A stretch of DNA of 36,357 nucleotides from contig JASMMA010000018.1 of assembly GCA_030748415.1 (NCBI GenBank), forward strand, positions 1 to 36,357, in the 5' to 3' direction. The notes below the pieces were generated by a model that was not told the DNA's origin, searched no databases, and saw only the letters and a program-made list of their open reading frames with translations. The stretch comes from Planctomycetota bacterium. Its GTDB lineage: Bacteria; Planctomycetota; UBA1135. Below are positions 27,555-36,270 of the stretch, one piece after another. The first letter of the stretch is position 1. Each line of letters opens with the position of its first letter. The translations under genes and the position numbers were made by a program.

Positions 27555-28154
27555 TTAGAGAGCGCCTGCGTTGTCAGTGAGGTAGGAAGCGACGCCTTCG
27601 GCGGTAGGTTGCATGTCCGGCTTTGAAGGATTCCAACCAGCTGGGCAAACACCTGCACCACTGCCGACATGGCCAATGGCATCCAGCATGCGCAGGGTTT
27701 CATCTAGATCCCGCCCCAGTCCAAGGTTGTTAACGGTTTGGCTTTGAACAATTCCATCACCATCAATGAGGAATGTACCGCGGAGGGAGAAAGTGGTTTC
27801 TTCGTGGAGAAGGTCGTAAGCATTCGTCATGGAACGATCTTCATCGCACAGCAAGGGGTAACCAAGGGCACCAATACCACCCTCGTTCACAGCGGTATTC
27901 CGCCAGTTTGCATGAGATTCTGCGTCATCAATGGAAACACCCAAAACTTGGGCGCCTCGCTTTTCGAATTCACCAAGGCGGTGGTCGAAAGCGATAAGTT
28001 CAGAAGGTCAGACGAAGGTGAAATCTTTTGGGTAGAAGAAAAGAACTACATTCTGACCTTTGTAGTCAGAAAGAGAAACTTCCTTCGTTGAGCCATCAGC
28101 CATCACCGCAGTTGCGGTGAAATCTGGAGCGGGCTTATTAACGAGTACAGACAT
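27555..28154 (-). CDS. Selenocysteine-containing 2-Cys peroxiredoxin (AhpC/Prx1 type)
   Basis: A thiol-type peroxidase reducing H2O2 or organic peroxides. The frame from ATG 28154 to the stop at 27555 encodes 199 residues with a single in-frame UGA at 28010-28008 (codon 49). It lies exactly at the peroxidatic position: [36 protein letters not shown], where the family has V-C-P. The Thr of the P-x-x-x-T/S-x-x-C site is present (DFTFV-U), and the resolving Cys is retained downstream in [11 protein letters not shown]. Reading UGA as a stop would truncate the fold after two strands, yet the downstream half keeps perfect family sequence. A strong stem-loop just after the UGA (27958-27993) is a candidate SECIS. 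There is no Shine-Dalgarno before the start. A terminator follows the gene. Confidence 0.92.
27958..27993 (-). promoter_or_regulatory. Candidate bacterial SECIS of the peroxiredoxin mRNA
   Basis: Fourteen nucleotides after the UGA, the mRNA folds as CGCTTTCGA paired with TCGAAAAGCG (one bulged A), then CACC/GGTG closing a five-base loop GCCTT. The loop begins with G and starts 29 nt after the UGA, in the range expected for bacterial SelB-dependent SECIS elements. Confidence 0.75.
28008..28010 (-). other. In-frame UGA (selenocysteine codon 49) of the peroxiredoxin
   Basis: tca on the plus strand reads TGA on the minus strand, in frame with both halves of the peroxiredoxin and at the peroxidatic Cys position. 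Confidence 0.9.
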
Positions 28155-31585: not shown

Positions 31586-33253
31586 GTGAAATACTTTTTG
31601 CCCCTCGCCTCACTCCTTCTTGCCCTTCCCCTCACAGCACAGAACTACCGTGATGTTGCTGAGTTGGATTCTGGCATGAATTCCCCTTACAGCACTTCAG
31701 TTATCGCAACCGAAGGAGAACACACTGTTGTTGTCTGGCAGGAAGATACTACTAAGGAACTTTGGAGTGTTACTTCTGTTTCCCAAGGAACTTCCTTCAA
31801 TGACAAAGTTCGCATTGACAACGACAGCACTAGCGCGAAGAAATACCTGGACGACATTCACAACCTTGCTGTTTGGCAGTCCAACATTTACATGGTTTGG
31901 CGCGACGAACGCAACGGTGCCGATGATGTTTACTTCACGACATCTACCGACGGTGGATTCACCTTTTCTGGTGACACACTTCTGGACAAAGGTGGCCCCA
32001 ACTCTTGCTACGATGTCGAAATGGTGAACTGGGAGGACAATCTTTATGTCCTATCCATGACCGATGATGGCGATGAAGGCATTTGGTTTACTTCATCTAA
32101 CGATGGTGGCTCCACTTGGACAACAGCTATGCGTCTCGATCCAGCCCTTGGTGATGTTGACTCCATCTCCATGACGAACGATGAAGACACCATTTATGTC
32201 GCCTACAACGACGACCGAAACGCCACATACAACGAAGACATCTTTGTCCGAGTTTCAACTGATGGCGGCCTCACTTGGAGTGCCGACACTCAAGTCAACA
32301 CTGACGGCGATGCGGTTTACCCCGTAATCCGCTGTGGCAACGACGCCGCAGTTGTGACCTGGCTCGCCGACAAGACCGCCACATCTTCTTCTGACGAAGA
32401 AACGTGGGCTGCTTTCACAACGGACACCGGCGCGACCTGGGGTGCGAACTCCATGGTTTCCACTGGTGCAGACGCCGACAACATGAGCATGTCTTGGGTT
32501 GGCGATTCCATTGGCGGCATATGCAACATTGCCTGGGAAGATAACCGAAATGGTTCAGACGAAGTTTTTGTTGCCTCTTCTGATGACTTTGGTGGATCTT
32601 GGCACGAAGCTAGCTTTGGTGCTGGTGCATATCCAGTCATCGAGTCTGACATCAACTATGTTGGGGTCGCGTTCAATGGAGGCTCTTATCCAGAAACTGC
32701 AGCCATGTCTGTCTCGTCTGATGGCGGGTTGACGCGCTGGAGTCCAATCGCTGATTTGGGCAACGGCACTGGTGGTGACACCGACTACATGGCTCTCTGC
32801 TATGACGAAATCTACGAAAGCTTTAATGTTTCTTGGAATAATGACAATACTGGCGCGAACCGCGTTTACGCAGGTGGCTGCCGCGCGCAAACGCTCACCA
32901 TGAACGGCACTTTCCAGGCTGGCCAAACCATTGACTTCTCGGTTTCTGACTTTGGCATTAACAACACTGGAATGCAATTCCGCGTTGCAGGCTCATTCAC
33001 CGATGCGAACCCAATCCTGTTGAGTGATGGGATTCGGTTGCTCTACATCGACAATGACATTGCTTTCCAAACCACTAAGAACATGCCAGAACTTCGTGGG
33101 ACTATTGATGGAAGCGGAAATGGCGCAACGAGTTCCGTCACCGTTCCAAGTGTCGTCACTCCTGGAATGGACATGTACTGGATTGCAGTAACAATCGATT
33201 TCGGCGCGAATGTGGCTTCCATAACGGATCCGCTTCATGTAACCGCCTCATAG
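31586..33253 (+). CDS. Exported Asp-box (BNR/sialidase-like) beta-propeller protein
   Basis: A signal peptide (MKYFLPLASLLLALPLTAQN) precedes a propeller region with repeated Asp boxes (S/T-x-D-x-G-x-T-W): STDGGFTF, SNDGGSTWT, STDGGLTWS, TTDTGATWG, SSDDFGGSWH and SSDGGLTRW. Such boxes occur in sialidases and in many non-enzymatic propellers. I do not see the sialidase arginine triad clearly, so enzymatic function is unproven. The sequence is very rich in Asp, Asn, Gly and Thr and low in Lys, as in calcium-binding secreted marine proteins. The last 120 or so residues (QTLTMNGTFQAGQ ... DPLHVTAS) form a beta-rich tail resembling those of the two exported hydrolases. GTG 31586 is the start, with no evident Shine-Dalgarno. 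Confidence 0.8.
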   Translation: MKYFLPLASLLLALPLTAQNYRDVAELDSGMNSPYSTSVIATEGEHTVVVWQEDTTKELWSVTSVSQGTSFNDKVRIDNDSTSAKKYLDDIHNLAVWQSNIYMVWRDERNGADDVYFTTSTDGGFTFSGDTLLDKGGPNSCYDVEMVNWEDNLYVLSMTDDGDEGIWFTSSNDGGSTWTTAMRLDPALGDVDSISMTNDEDTIYVAYNDDRNATYNEDIFVRVSTDGGLTWSADTQVNTDGDAVYPVIRCGNDAAVVTWLADKTATSSSDEETWAAFTTDTGATWGANSMVSTGADADNMSMSWVGDSIGGICNIAWEDNRNGSDEVFVASSDDFGGSWHEASFGAGAYPVIESDINYVGVAFNGGSYPETAAMSVSSDGGLTRWSPIADLGNGTGGDTDYMALCYDEIYESFNVSWNNDNTGANRVYAGGCRAQTLTMNGTFQAGQTIDFSVSDFGINNTGMQFRVAGSFTDANPILLSDGIRLLYIDNDIAFQTTKNMPELRGTIDGSGNGATSSVTVPSVVTPGMDMYWIAVTIDFGANVASITDPLHVTAS

Positions 33254-33266
33254 TCAAGCTTTTGAT

Positions 33267-33331
33267 TGGGGCCGAATGCCTCTCCCGTTTTAGCGGGAGC
33301 CTGCTAAAACACAGAAATGCATTCGGCCCCA
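33267..33331 (+). promoter_or_regulatory. Nested hairpins overlapping the start codon of the Gfo/Idh/MocA gene
   Basis: A 13-bp perfect outer stem (tGGGGCCGAATGC, 33267-33279, with 33319-33331) takes in the last base of ATG 33317-33319. Inside it, two mutually exclusive stems compete: CTCCCG/CGGGAG (33282-33287 with 33294-33299) and TTTTAGC/GCTAAAA (33288-33294 with 33303-33309). It could act as a terminator of the Asp-box gene, or control access to the next start codon. Confidence 0.55.
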
Positions 33332-34675
33332 CCCTCCCCTTCACGGCGTTCCTTTTTAAGGACCGCCGTTTTTTCATCTACTGCGCTTCCAGTGGCCTCC
33401 TCCCTCTTAGGGAGTTGCGCAACCACTCGATATGCAAAAGGAAAACTACGACATGCAAGTATCGGTGTTGGGGGAATGGGTGAAACCGATTTAAGAAATA
33501 TCTCTTCGCACCCAGATGTCGAAATTATTGCCCTTTGCGATGTGGACAAGCTTCGGCTAAAGAAAGCCGGTGAGCTTCATCCATCGGCTCGGCTTTATCA
33601 AGACTGGCGCGAACTTTTGAATGCCGAGCGAACCAACTTGGACTCAATCAATATCACCACGCCCGATCACATGCACGCACCCATTGCCTTTTCTGCAATG
33701 GAACAAGGCCTCCATGTCTACTGCCAAAAGCCCCTCACCCACACGGTCGTGGAGGCGCGCCGGCTTCGTGAAGTGGCCAATCAAACTGGAGTAGTGACTC
33801 AAATGGGAATCCAAAACCATTCGAACCCTCCATATGCACGCGCTGGGGCCCTCTTTGCCCGCCAACACATTGGTCCAATTCGGGAGGCTCATGTTTGGAC
33901 TGACCGACCTGCTGGTTGGTGGCCGCAGGGTGTTGAGCGACCTGAGGGAAGCGACCCCGTTCCAGAGCATTTGGATTGGGATGGTTGGCTAGGGGTTGCA
34001 CCAAACCGCCCATACAAAGAAGGTGCCTATCACGCCTTCGTCTGGAGAGGGCGACTAGATTTCGGAACCGGCGCCCAAGGCGACATGGCCTGTCACCTGA
34101 TGGATCCCGCTCCTTGGTTTATGGAACTCGGAGATCCTTTGAGCGTTGAGAGTTTCGGTCCACCACCCTCCAACGATACCTTTCCGCTTTGGTCGCGTGT
34201 GCGTTATGAGTTCGAGCCCACTCGTTGGACTCGCGACAACGGTGTCACTGTCACTTGGCATGACGGAAAACGAAAACCGGACGCCCTACTTTCGGAGCTC
34301 GGCGCAAGCGATTCTGCTTACCACAATGCATGTCTCTTTGTTGGAGAAGAGGGCGCATTGATGGCGAGCCCTTACGAGGCACCTCGCCTGTTACCTGGCG
34401 ACCGTTTTGTGGATATACCCATTCCTGAAGCAAGAGGGGTAAATCATTGGCACCAATGGGTCAATGCATGTTTCGGAAACGGAAAGCCAAGCGCACCGTT
34501 TTCTTATTCTGGCCGTTTGACGGAAATTGCACTACTCGGTAATGTTGCTCTTCGGTTTCCGAACCAAAAGCTGGCCTTCGACTCCGAAGCTCTTTCTTTC
34601 CCCAACCGCTCCGATGCTGACCGCTTCCTGCATAAGGATTATCGCGATGGTTGGAAAATCCCAGGTCTAAACTAA
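33317..34675 (+). CDS. Tat-exported Gfo/Idh/MocA-family oxidoreductase
   Basis: The N-terminus SPSRRSFLRTAVFSSTALPVASSLLGSC is a twin-arginine signal (RRSFLR), so the protein is exported folded with its nicotinamide cofactor. The Rossmann domain (IGVGGMGETDLRNI, EIIALCDVD) is followed by ITTPDHMHAPIA and the E/Q-K-P motif (HVYCQKPLTHTVVEARRL), where the catalytic Lys sits, and by the C-terminal Gfo/Idh beta-sheet domain with GDMACHLMDPAPWFMELG. Exported family members of this type are abundant in Planctomycetota and are assumed to act on sugars or cyclitols. ATG 33317 lies in a stable hairpin. The stop overlaps the start of the two-Sec thioredoxin-fold gene (TAATG), so the two are coupled and may work on the same exported substrate or redox pool. 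Confidence 0.9.
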   Translation: MHSAPPSPSRRSFLRTAVFSSTALPVASSLLGSCATTRYAKGKLRHASIGVGGMGETDLRNISSHPDVEIIALCDVDKLRLKKAGELHPSARLYQDWRELLNAERTNLDSINITTPDHMHAPIAFSAMEQGLHVYCQKPLTHTVVEARRLREVANQTGVVTQMGIQNHSNPPYARAGALFARQHIGPIREAHVWTDRPAGWWPQGVERPEGSDPVPEHLDWDGWLGVAPNRPYKEGAYHAFVWRGRLDFGTGAQGDMACHLMDPAPWFMELGDPLSVESFGPPPSNDTFPLWSRVRYEFEPTRWTRDNGVTVTWHDGKRKPDALLSELGASDSAYHNACLFVGEEGALMASPYEAPRLLPGDRFVDIPIPEARGVNHWHQWVNACFGNGKPSAPFSYSGRLTEIALLGNVALRFPNQKLAFDSEALSFPNRSDADRFLHKDYRDGWKIPGLN

Positions 34676-36270
34676 TGAAATTACTTTCTCTCATTTCAGT
34701 TCTCCTCCTTTCAACTCTTGCTGTTGCGCAAGAGAAAACAAAGGGTGATGCCTTTGAAGTTTTTGAGAACGCACGCCTCGAAGCTGCCGAAACCGGGCGC
34801 AACTTGTTTGTGCACCTTGGGGCTCCGTGGTGAAGCTGGTGCGGCGTTCTCGAGGAGTTCCTCGGGCAAGATGAAGTTTCTCAACTAATGTCCAAAGATT
34901 TCGTTGATTGTTCTATTGACCAAGATTTAATGCAGCATGGGGAAGAGGTCGCATCCGTTCTGCGGGCTGGAAAAGGAGGCGGCATCCCTTGGTTTGTTTT
35001 TCTTGATCCAAGTCAGCCAATATTCATTCAAGACACCGAAACTGGAGCTCTCCGCAGAAGAGAATCTGCGATTTTGGCAACTGCCGACGGCCCCAAAGGA
35101 AATGTGGGCTGTCCAATGGCAGTTGATGAACGAACTCACTTCTTGGCATGCTTAGCCTCTGCCCGAAAGTCTCTCAGCGATGAGGAGCTCCTACGAATTG
35201 CAGAACTTCAGTTGGACTTCGCAAAAGCCCGGGATGAAAAATACGGGCAATCAGTTGCCGGGATTCCCGCCCCACCAACTTCTTTTAAAGAGCTTGAGGG
35301 TGCTTTCAAAAAAGAAATGAGTGAATTCAGAAAGAAGCTCATGGAGCAACGGAAGAAAGGAAAGTCCGTCCCCTTGCCACCCAAGTATGGGACTCAAGAA
35401 TCATATTTCCCTCAATTCCGTTCCTTGGCCAAGAATTACTTAGCACCCCCAAATGACCGGGGCCAGGCCCTTTTGTGGTGCTTCTCCAACTTCCGAAGTT
35501 CTGGTGTGGAGTGGAAGAATCCTGGAGCTATTCAAACTGGTTTAGCTGATTCCCTCATTCTGAACTGGAGTGATGCCGAATGGGCAGACGGACTCGCCGC
35601 AGCAATTGCCCGAAACAAGAACTCAGATGGCTTTAATGCCGAAGAGGCTCTAAGCAGAATGGAAGGCGCATCAAATTCCACAAGGGCGCAAGCCAATGCC
35701 GCCTACCACCGGGCCAACCTTTATCGCCGCGGGGATGAGGGAAAATTCGAATCCGCACTCACGCATTTCATTCAGGAATTCCCCAGTGACGCTCGTGTTT
35801 CTAGAGCGGAAGGTTATCTACGCAACTTGCGTCTTCTAAAACTTGGAAAGGAAGCACCCAACTTTTCTGGGACTGATGTTGACGGGAACCCAATCTCACT
35901 CTCGGATTACAGAGGAAAAGTTACATTCCTCGTTTTCTGGGGATTTTGGTGAGGCCCTTGCAAGGGGGAAATCCCCCACGAAAAGGCGCTAGTTCAGCGT
36001 TTTCAAAATGACAACTTCGCGATTCTTGGAATCAACACCGACCGAGATGCTGACTCTTATCGCGCACAATGCGAAGAGCACGGTGTCAGTTGGGAAAACA
36101 TTTTCAATGGATCAACAAAAGGGGGCGTGCCCGAAGAATGGGGCATTTACGCCTATCCCACCACCTTCCTTCTGGATGCCGAAGGAAAAATTCGTTACAA
36201 AAATTTACGCGGAAAGAGGGTTGAAGAAAAAGTTGCGGAATTGTTAGGAGAGAATTTGAACAGCGACTAA
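34675..36270 (+). CDS. Exported thioredoxin-fold selenoprotein with two selenocysteines (531 residues)
   Basis: One continuous frame from ATG 34675 to TAA 36268-36270, interrupted only by UGA at codon 53 and codon 426. A signal peptide (MKLLSLISVLLLSTLAVAQ) is followed by: (1) a thioredoxin_7/DUF255-like module (about 26-130) with HLGAPW-U-SWCGVLEEF, a U-x-x-C site matching the family's C-H-W-C, and a cis-Pro-like GGIPWFVFLD; (2) a charged helical region (about 150-390) with a Lys-rich stretch and TPR-like end; (3) a TlpA/ResA-like thioredoxin domain (about 398-531) with GKEAPNFSGTDVDGNPISLSDYRGK, FWGFW-U-GPCKGEIP where U-G-P-C replaces C-G-P-C, and cis-Pro in YAYPTTFLLD. In both sites the second Cys is retained. 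Likely an extracytoplasmic thiol/selenol oxidoreductase. It overlaps the Gfo/Idh/MocA stop by one base. Confidence 0.9.
34831..34833 (+). other. In-frame UGA, selenocysteine 53 (first redox site)
   Basis: TGA replaces the first Cys of the first C-x-x-C-type site (W-U-S-W-C). Frame is preserved on both sides. Confidence 0.88.
34849..34866 (+). promoter_or_regulatory. Candidate SECIS after the first UGA
   Basis: CTCGAGG (34849-34855) pairs with CCTCGGG (34860-34866, one G-U pair) around the tetraloop AGTT, starting 23 nt after the UGA with G as second loop base. Confidence 0.6.
35950..35952 (+). other. In-frame UGA, selenocysteine 426 (second redox site)
   Basis: TGA replaces the first Cys of the TlpA-type W-C-G-P-C site (W-U-G-P-C). 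Frame is preserved on both sides. Confidence 0.9.
35954..35987 (+). promoter_or_regulatory. Candidate SECIS after the second UGA
   Basis: GGGGG (35964-35968) pairs with CCCCC (35973-35977) around AAAT. An outer stem GCC(C)TT / AAGGC (35954-35959 with 35983-35987) can extend it across an internal loop. If the top G-C pair opens, the loop begins with G. The loop is close to the UGA (about 17 nt). Confidence 0.5.

Follow-up and report, generated by a model that had tools for sequence, protein, structure and literature searches.

The 36,357-nucleotide stretch analysed here, contig JASMMA010000018.1 of a Planctomycetota bacterium (GenBank assembly GCA_030748415.1, lineage UBA1135), is referred to below as the window. 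On its forward strand lies a gene that almost certainly encodes a genuine selenoprotein with two selenocysteines (Sec, U), one in each of two different thioredoxin-fold modules. From sequence comparisons, we conclude that the two-Sec protein appears to be a new double-selenoprotein arrangement of known folds. Judging from the same comparisons, it is very probably a periplasmic oxidoreductase, and the overall explanation that we consider probable is that of an exported double selenoprotein that acts as a thiol/selenol:disulfide reductase, for which we tentatively favor a relay from the N-terminal to the C-terminal module (N-to-C) as the mechanism. The key features are listed below.

34675..36270, forward: two-Sec gene, 531 codons and a TAA stop
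34675..34728, forward: predicted signal peptide MKLLSLISVLLLSTLAVA, 18 residues, putative cleavage before Q19 placed by eye
34747..35244, forward: N-module, Thioredoxin_7/DsbH-like, residues 25-190 (PF13899, PF03190)
34831..34833, forward: TGA, Sec53 of WUSWC, from the reading of the frame and alignment with relatives
34849..34866, forward: selenocysteine insertion sequence (SECIS)-like hairpin CTCGAGG-AGTT-CCTCGGG, following the first UGA
35257..35829, forward: helical spacer, residues 195-385, all-alpha in the structure model
35830..36267, forward: C-module, ResA/TlpA/CcmG-like, residues 386-531 (PF00578)
35950..35952, forward: TGA, Sec426 of WUGPC, from the reading of the frame and alignment with relatives
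35964..35977, forward: SECIS-like hairpin GGGGG-AAAT-CCCCC, following the second UGA; hairpin z 2.72 against synonymous recodings
33317..34675, forward: upstream Gfo/Idh/MocA oxidoreductase gene, overlapping the start of the two-Sec gene; the gene pair is kept in a relative of the same genus

One frame, two UGA codons and two thioredoxin-fold modules

Exactly two in-frame TGAs are present in the two-Sec gene, at codon 53 (34831-34833, PWUSWC) and codon 426 (35950-35952, FWUGPC), and each occupies the slot of the first Cys in a CxxC, so that our reading of the frame confirms the claim of a preliminary description of the window that one frame of 531 codons has UGA at the first position of both redox sites. 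The gene starts within TAATG, where its ATG and the TAA of the gene before it have an A in common. Under translation table 11, the sole listed piece of this frame (of at least 80 residues) is a 354-residue open reading frame (ORF) at 34888-35952. At the base composition of the window, the chance of a 532-codon span without TAA or TAG is about 1e-7, and two TGAs placed randomly on 531 codons would both fall on the first positions of the active sites with a chance of about 7e-6. The window also contains six other frames of at least 450 codons that read through TGA; length, then, is no proof, and the proof lies in conservation.

Our orthologue search covered 151 genomes, namely, that of the window (G000) and 150 relatives, and the figures refer to the matches listed. 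Among these, matches spanning both halves of the protein come from three genomes, G000, G001 and G013; a separate scan of genome contigs gave one distant locus. The G001 orthologue, from the same genus, is about 73-74% identical and syntenic, with the upstream Gfo/Idh gene directly adjacent as in the window, and contains two TGAs that in a codon-by-codon alignment fall at positions 53 and 426 in both genes. In the segments flanking each TGA, the proportions of nonsynonymous (pN) and synonymous (pS) differences between these two genes are 0.10-0.14 and 0.67-0.88, respectively, and the overall ratio is 0.035, a rough value only because dS is saturated. This comparison indicates strong purifying selection on both sides of each TGA. 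The G013 match (52% identity) is ended by a contig boundary: contig C141 carries UGA426, contig C264 carries UGA53 within the motif LEAPWUGWC, and the ends of the two contigs share a 92-base overlap with 3 mismatches, so that the two pieces likely represent one split gene with both UGAs. We reject a sequencing error or a pseudogene because both TGAs are present in three genomes, with constraint on either side.

The two modules belong to distinct families. Residues 30-121 match Thioredoxin_7 (PF13899, 45.4 bits, cut-off 27) and DsbH/DUF255 (PF03190, 33.7 bits, cut-off 27), whereas the C-module matches AhpC-TSA (PF00578, 86.5 bits, cut-off 26) and Redoxin (PF08534, 78.1 bits, cut-off 26.6), with additional matches of the C-terminal part to Thioredoxin_8 and Thioredoxin. 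By sequence, the best solved relatives of residues 388-520 are ResA-type proteins, and residues 28-116 weakly match TXNDC12/p19. In the full-length structure model, the spacer and the C-module are confident, 10-residue blocks between 201 and 385 mostly having a predicted local distance difference test score (pLDDT) of about 90 or more, with one block at 68; in Foldseek comparisons, the C-module reaches TM-scores of 0.8-0.9 by target length against ResA. A joint alignment had placed N-only modules on the C-module, so 9 N-only rows were dropped and 26 rows left for the full-length model; the N-half of that model is accordingly poor, and a separately built model of the N-module was used instead (pLDDT 92). 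Its best Foldseek matches are 3fk8 (a Xylella disulphide isomerase), 7tkv (a DsbH-domain protein), 1sen (the ER protein Rp19), DsbD-gamma and AGR2, at E-values of 2e-5 to 1e-3 and TM-scores by query of just 0.4-0.5. Thus, the module types that had been proposed, DUF255/Thioredoxin_7-like (here Thioredoxin_7 and DUF255/DsbH) and TlpA/ResA-like (here AhpC-TSA/Redoxin, with ResA as the best solved match), are borne out, as is the helical spacer between them.

For both modules, there are relatives with Sec and relatives with Cys at the active site. Among 154 genomes of the order, 88 have an N-module match at 1e-10, and among 392 genomes sampled from the phylum, 48 have one at 1e-20. A census of fetched loci (denoted by L numbers and representing part of these matches), pooled at E <=1e-18 and restricted to those with a readable motif, yields 85 distinct N-module sequences, 56 with U and 29 with C, a few of which might be one gene in two loci. 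Some N-modules occur in frames without a detected C-module, and others are joined to different partners, such as a DUF885 domain in the case of a Sec-type N-module (L053:2748-4898). The C-module occurs apart in WGFWUGPC proteins whose N-terminal region is helical; in four fetched relatives, Cys takes the place of U. Cys homologues, the check proposed in the preliminary description, therefore align at both Sec positions.

RNA hairpins and the selenocysteine machinery

A stem-loop directly 3' of the UGA, the feature expected of a selenoprotein gene, is present at both sites and is weaker at the second UGA of G001. In the N-module census, an AGTT-loop hairpin with all five inner pairs is found in 53 of the 56 Sec-type sequences (all except L143, L187 and L194) and in none of the 29 Cys-type ones. 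Across 30 aligned Sec sequences, 96.2% of the cells of the first stem pair, and changes on both sides occur in 4 of 7 pairs against a shuffled mean of 0.3; none of 500 shuffles is as high, a figure that is not a probability because the aligned sequences are related. When the hairpin-lacking row L143 is removed, two-sided changes persist in 3 of 7 pairs (4 of five cells). The second hairpin changes register between homologues, and pairs of one fixed structure were therefore not counted there.

Comparison with synonymous recodings leads in the same direction. For the N-module, the hairpin z is 3.46 ± 0.25 in Sec-type sequences (n = 30) versus 0.08 ± 0.18 in Cys-type ones (n = 16), and for the C-module, 2.49 ± 0.17 (n = 32) versus 0.67 ± 0.29 (n = 4); the corresponding minimum free energy (MFE) z values are -1.93 versus -0.66 and -1.33 versus -0.40. 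The stretch following the UGA in Sec-type N-modules is mostly LEEFL, whereas in Cys-type modules it is mostly LEDWM, LEAWM, LEGWM or similar (Cys rows L119, L124, L128-L132, L135-L138, L140, L142, L144, L147 and L148). The hairpin-encoding LEEFL is thus mostly lost where Cys replaces Sec, and the amino acid sequence here was apparently fixed by the RNA signal.

The genome of the window (2.46 Mb in 68 contigs, 90.6% complete) encodes the machinery for Sec insertion. The claim of two selenocysteines had been made contingent on selB and tRNA-Sec; both are found above their cut-offs, the latter with the anticodon TCA, along with selA and with selD, which contains one TGA and whose match ends about 110 bases before tRNA-Sec. 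On contig C11, selA, selD and tRNA-Sec all lie inside about 5.1 kb. Across the order, tRNA-Sec is detected in 138 of the 154 genomes. TGA is the stop of 6 of 25 main ORFs of the window (a hand-picked set that includes the two-Sec gene), and a changed genetic code is rejected because UGA terminates these ordinary genes. Taken together, the Sec machinery, the conservation of both TGAs, the Cys homologues and hairpins scoring above those of the Cys homologues support the two selenocysteines originally proposed.

Other candidate selenoproteins are encoded in the same genome. A second such gene within the window (27555-28154, reverse strand, start counted by hand) is predicted to encode a peroxiredoxin with a TGA (28010-28008) in TFVU, the peroxidatic position. 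Four further thioredoxin-like genes (L093, L095, L096 and L102, the last scoring under the AhpC-TSA cut-off) have a UGA at the active site, pointing to a high number of selenoproteins for a small genome. As for the neighbourhood of the two-Sec gene, a BNR-repeat gene of the window (31586-33253) has no match in the searched syntenic stretch of G001 and perhaps was inserted or lost.

Both orders of fusion and relationships with known systems

A search of the fetched loci with two profiles in one frame, in which short loci could miss modules joined further away, yields 20 genes with both modules at the final thresholds. Three have the N-to-C order, namely, the two-Sec gene, its G001 orthologue and the G013 piece, in which a single U is visible because its contig begins after UGA53. 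The other 17, from 17 genomes, have the reverse order (C-to-N; L118, L120, L125-L127, L133, L134, L141, L145, L146, L158, L159, L162, L185, L186, L189 and L190), and each contains exactly two U in the span, both at active sites. These reverse-order genes resemble the two-Sec gene in combining the same two Sec modules in one frame, with a leader-like start where it could be read, but differ in that the TlpA-type module comes first, the middle is longer in several and the genomes lie outside the family of the window. A tree of 67 N-module sequences, which predates the fetching of the last 20 stretches, unites the three N-to-C rows in a single clade (99/86) and distributes the 13 C-to-N rows among several other clades, so that the two orders apparently arose separately; the U/C label switches just 3 times, and the long row L125 is of unsure position. 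That the same module types are joined in both orders suggests that the two halves may work together. Another double-Sec design is seen in L033:445-2553, a single frame in which a helical+TlpA unit occurs twice, once with Sec in WGFWUGPC and once with Sec in WGFWUPSC.

A smaller, earlier run of this search also gave a Cys/Cys two-module protein, which was removed by the E-value limit of the larger run. This protein, from the genome of the window (L091:5969-7408, contig C11), shares with the two-Sec gene a leader-like start and a Thioredoxin_7 domain followed by a TlpA-type domain but has CxxC at both sites. Its C-module is 33% identical to that of the two-Sec protein and its N-module match is short and weak, a limited likeness that perhaps reflects a separate fusion.

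Among known systems, the N-module is similar in fold and redox site to DsbD gamma and DsbH (PF13899, PF03190; 2fwf, 7tkv and 3fk8, Foldseek E 2e-5 to 2e-4), from which it differs in having Sec for Cys and in being fused to a ResA-like module. The DsbD transmembrane domain PF02683 is absent from the Pfam matches of the two-Sec protein and present in a separate DsbD with Sec that is encoded elsewhere in the genome, and the NCBIfam DsbH model NF043050 is not listed for the N-module alone. The C-module, about 29% identical to a ResA-type protein, shares its fold and W-x-x-P-C type motif with ResA, TlpA and CcmG (PF00578, PF08534; 4nmu and 1st9) but has a Sec nucleophile and is preceded by a helical spacer and a second Sec module. 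The two-Sec protein passes no NCBIfam cut-off: it scores 86.1 bits against ResA (NF002854, cut-off 170), 22 bits against TsoB (NF045694, cut-off 805) and 33.2 bits against the WAxxUGC_long ResA-like selenoprotein (NF041054, cut-off 300), with no match to the Trx7/PDZ selenoprotein (NF041199) at E 0.001.

Double-Sec bacterial families have been described, including TsoB (NF045694), MbdU (NF045648) and Prx-like UxxU proteins; these resemble the two-Sec protein in having two Sec per chain, and TsoB is named as a rhodanese/DsbD fusion (PMC13188914). This 2026 review recognizes 119 prokaryotic selenoprotein families and subfamilies, a small subset of which have 2-3 Sec, and in its accessible text, no family is described as a pair of a UxxC Thioredoxin_7 module and a UxxC TlpA module. 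Nor is this arrangement described in the accessible portions of the Global Ocean Sampling paper (PMC2398784), the paper on Porphyra planctomycetes (PMC4807772) or another review (PMC9312934). Among the matches listed in a title and abstract search of the literature, the arrangement is unreported, subscription papers and preprints being outside the scope of the search and an earlier description being possible. The initial statement that no described family has this arrangement thus holds for the sources searched, with the qualification that, according to the accessible text of PMC13188914, other double-Sec bacterial families exist.

Proposed function and alternatives

Domains resembling DsbD-gamma and CcmG/ResA are parts of a single known pathway of electron transfer in the periplasm, and the presence of both, each with Sec, in one chain fits a relay from reductant to substrate. 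Under the scenario that we propose, the protein, presumably exported given the signal peptide recognized by eye, would use Sec at the nucleophile position of both modules, U53-S-W-C56 in the DsbH/DsbD-gamma-like one and U426-G-P-C429 in the ResA/TlpA/CcmG-like one, with each UGA decoded through its own downstream hairpin, presumably bound by SelB. The N-module would receive electrons from an upstream reductant. A plausible donor might be the Sec-containing DsbD-like protein of the same genome (L092:840-2630, contig C65), in which Sec lies in the C-terminal thioredoxin domain (FTGYTUVNC). The N-module would then pass the electrons to the ResA-like module via Sec-Sec or Sec-Cys exchange, and the latter would reduce the substrate. 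Export, the reductase direction, the donor, the relay and the substrate are what we infer from the domains and their relatives. The internal relay itself is a tentative proposal, to which we would give somewhat less than an even chance. Doubtful, although attractive, is the broader idea of a single-chain selenium redox wire, maybe with a transient interdomain diselenide, in which lineages of the phylum fused the modules more than once and in opposite orders.

Several observations weigh against this interpretation. The N-to-C order is seen in three genomes only. At the first UGA of the two-Sec gene, the plain MFE is not significant (z -0.19 against dinucleotide shuffles and -0.95 against synonymous recodings, compared with -2.5 at the second UGA by the latter measure). 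In G001, where the first UGA also gives -0.95, the hairpin at the second UGA is weak, with 3 bp (hairpin z 0.05, MFE z 0.33), and the MFE z at the second UGA of G013 is 0.13. For the TlpA-type UGA of the reverse-order genes, 10 of the 17 were tested and there is no clear group excess (hairpin z 0.72 ± 0.47, MFE z -0.42). tRNA-Sec is undetected in 16 of the 154 genomes of the order, including G011, G077 and G132, which still carry UGA genes of these kinds (L123, L146 and L030); these three are drafts, 83-89% complete, and the scan of the 154 genomes used stricter filters. Finally, interdomain contact is not judgeable from the full-length model, given the low confidence of its N-half.

The alternatives differ widely in probability. 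Much the most serious is that the two Sec modules are independent, that is, tethered reductases with different substrates and no electron flow between them. This is a realistic possibility that we nevertheless place below an even chance: each module type is found apart, the N-module alone or with DUF885 and the C-module behind an N-terminal helical region, and a long helical spacer separates the two, but the modules are joined in both orders (3 and 17 genes), with the N-to-C clade standing apart, as would be expected if the fusion served a joint function, which is not a proof of a relay. Sec occurs in bacterial peroxidases, and the C-module also matches the AhpC-TSA and Redoxin profiles, so one could envisage a selenium-dependent peroxide or sulfenic-acid reductase, with a peroxidatic Sec in the N-module and the C-module as its reductant. 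We consider this improbable, given that the best folds are DsbH/DsbD-gamma-like and ResA/CcmG and that both motifs are UxxC rather than the TxxU which the accessible text of PMC13188914 gives for Sec peroxiredoxins.

The remaining alternatives concern the UGAs themselves. Were one or both true stops, the locus would be a pseudogene, a decayed gene or a case of regulated truncation with separately translated pieces, a view for which one could cite the UGA-terminated ORFs among those picked in the window and the 354-residue internal ORF; it is hardly credible given the occurrence of both TGAs in three genomes, the constraint on the protein before, between and after them, the hairpins tied to the Sec state and the full Sec machinery. 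Reassignment of UGA to Trp, Gly or another amino acid in this lineage could account for the several genes of this genome that read through UGA, but UGA stops ordinary genes of the window, the in-gene UGAs of the genes examined coincide with redox positions occupied by Cys in relatives, and tRNA-Sec is widespread in the order, so we regard the probability of this reading as negligible.

The explanation that we favor, that of an exported double selenoprotein with two thioredoxin-fold modules, adds to a sparsely populated class: going by the accessible text of PMC13188914, multi-Sec families are a small subset of the described prokaryotic selenoproteins, and none there pairs these UxxC modules. 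If Sec modules were indeed fused separately in both orders, this would open the idea of an internal selenol relay to direct testing. Ordinary gene calling breaks two-Sec genes, and such genes are therefore probably under-counted.

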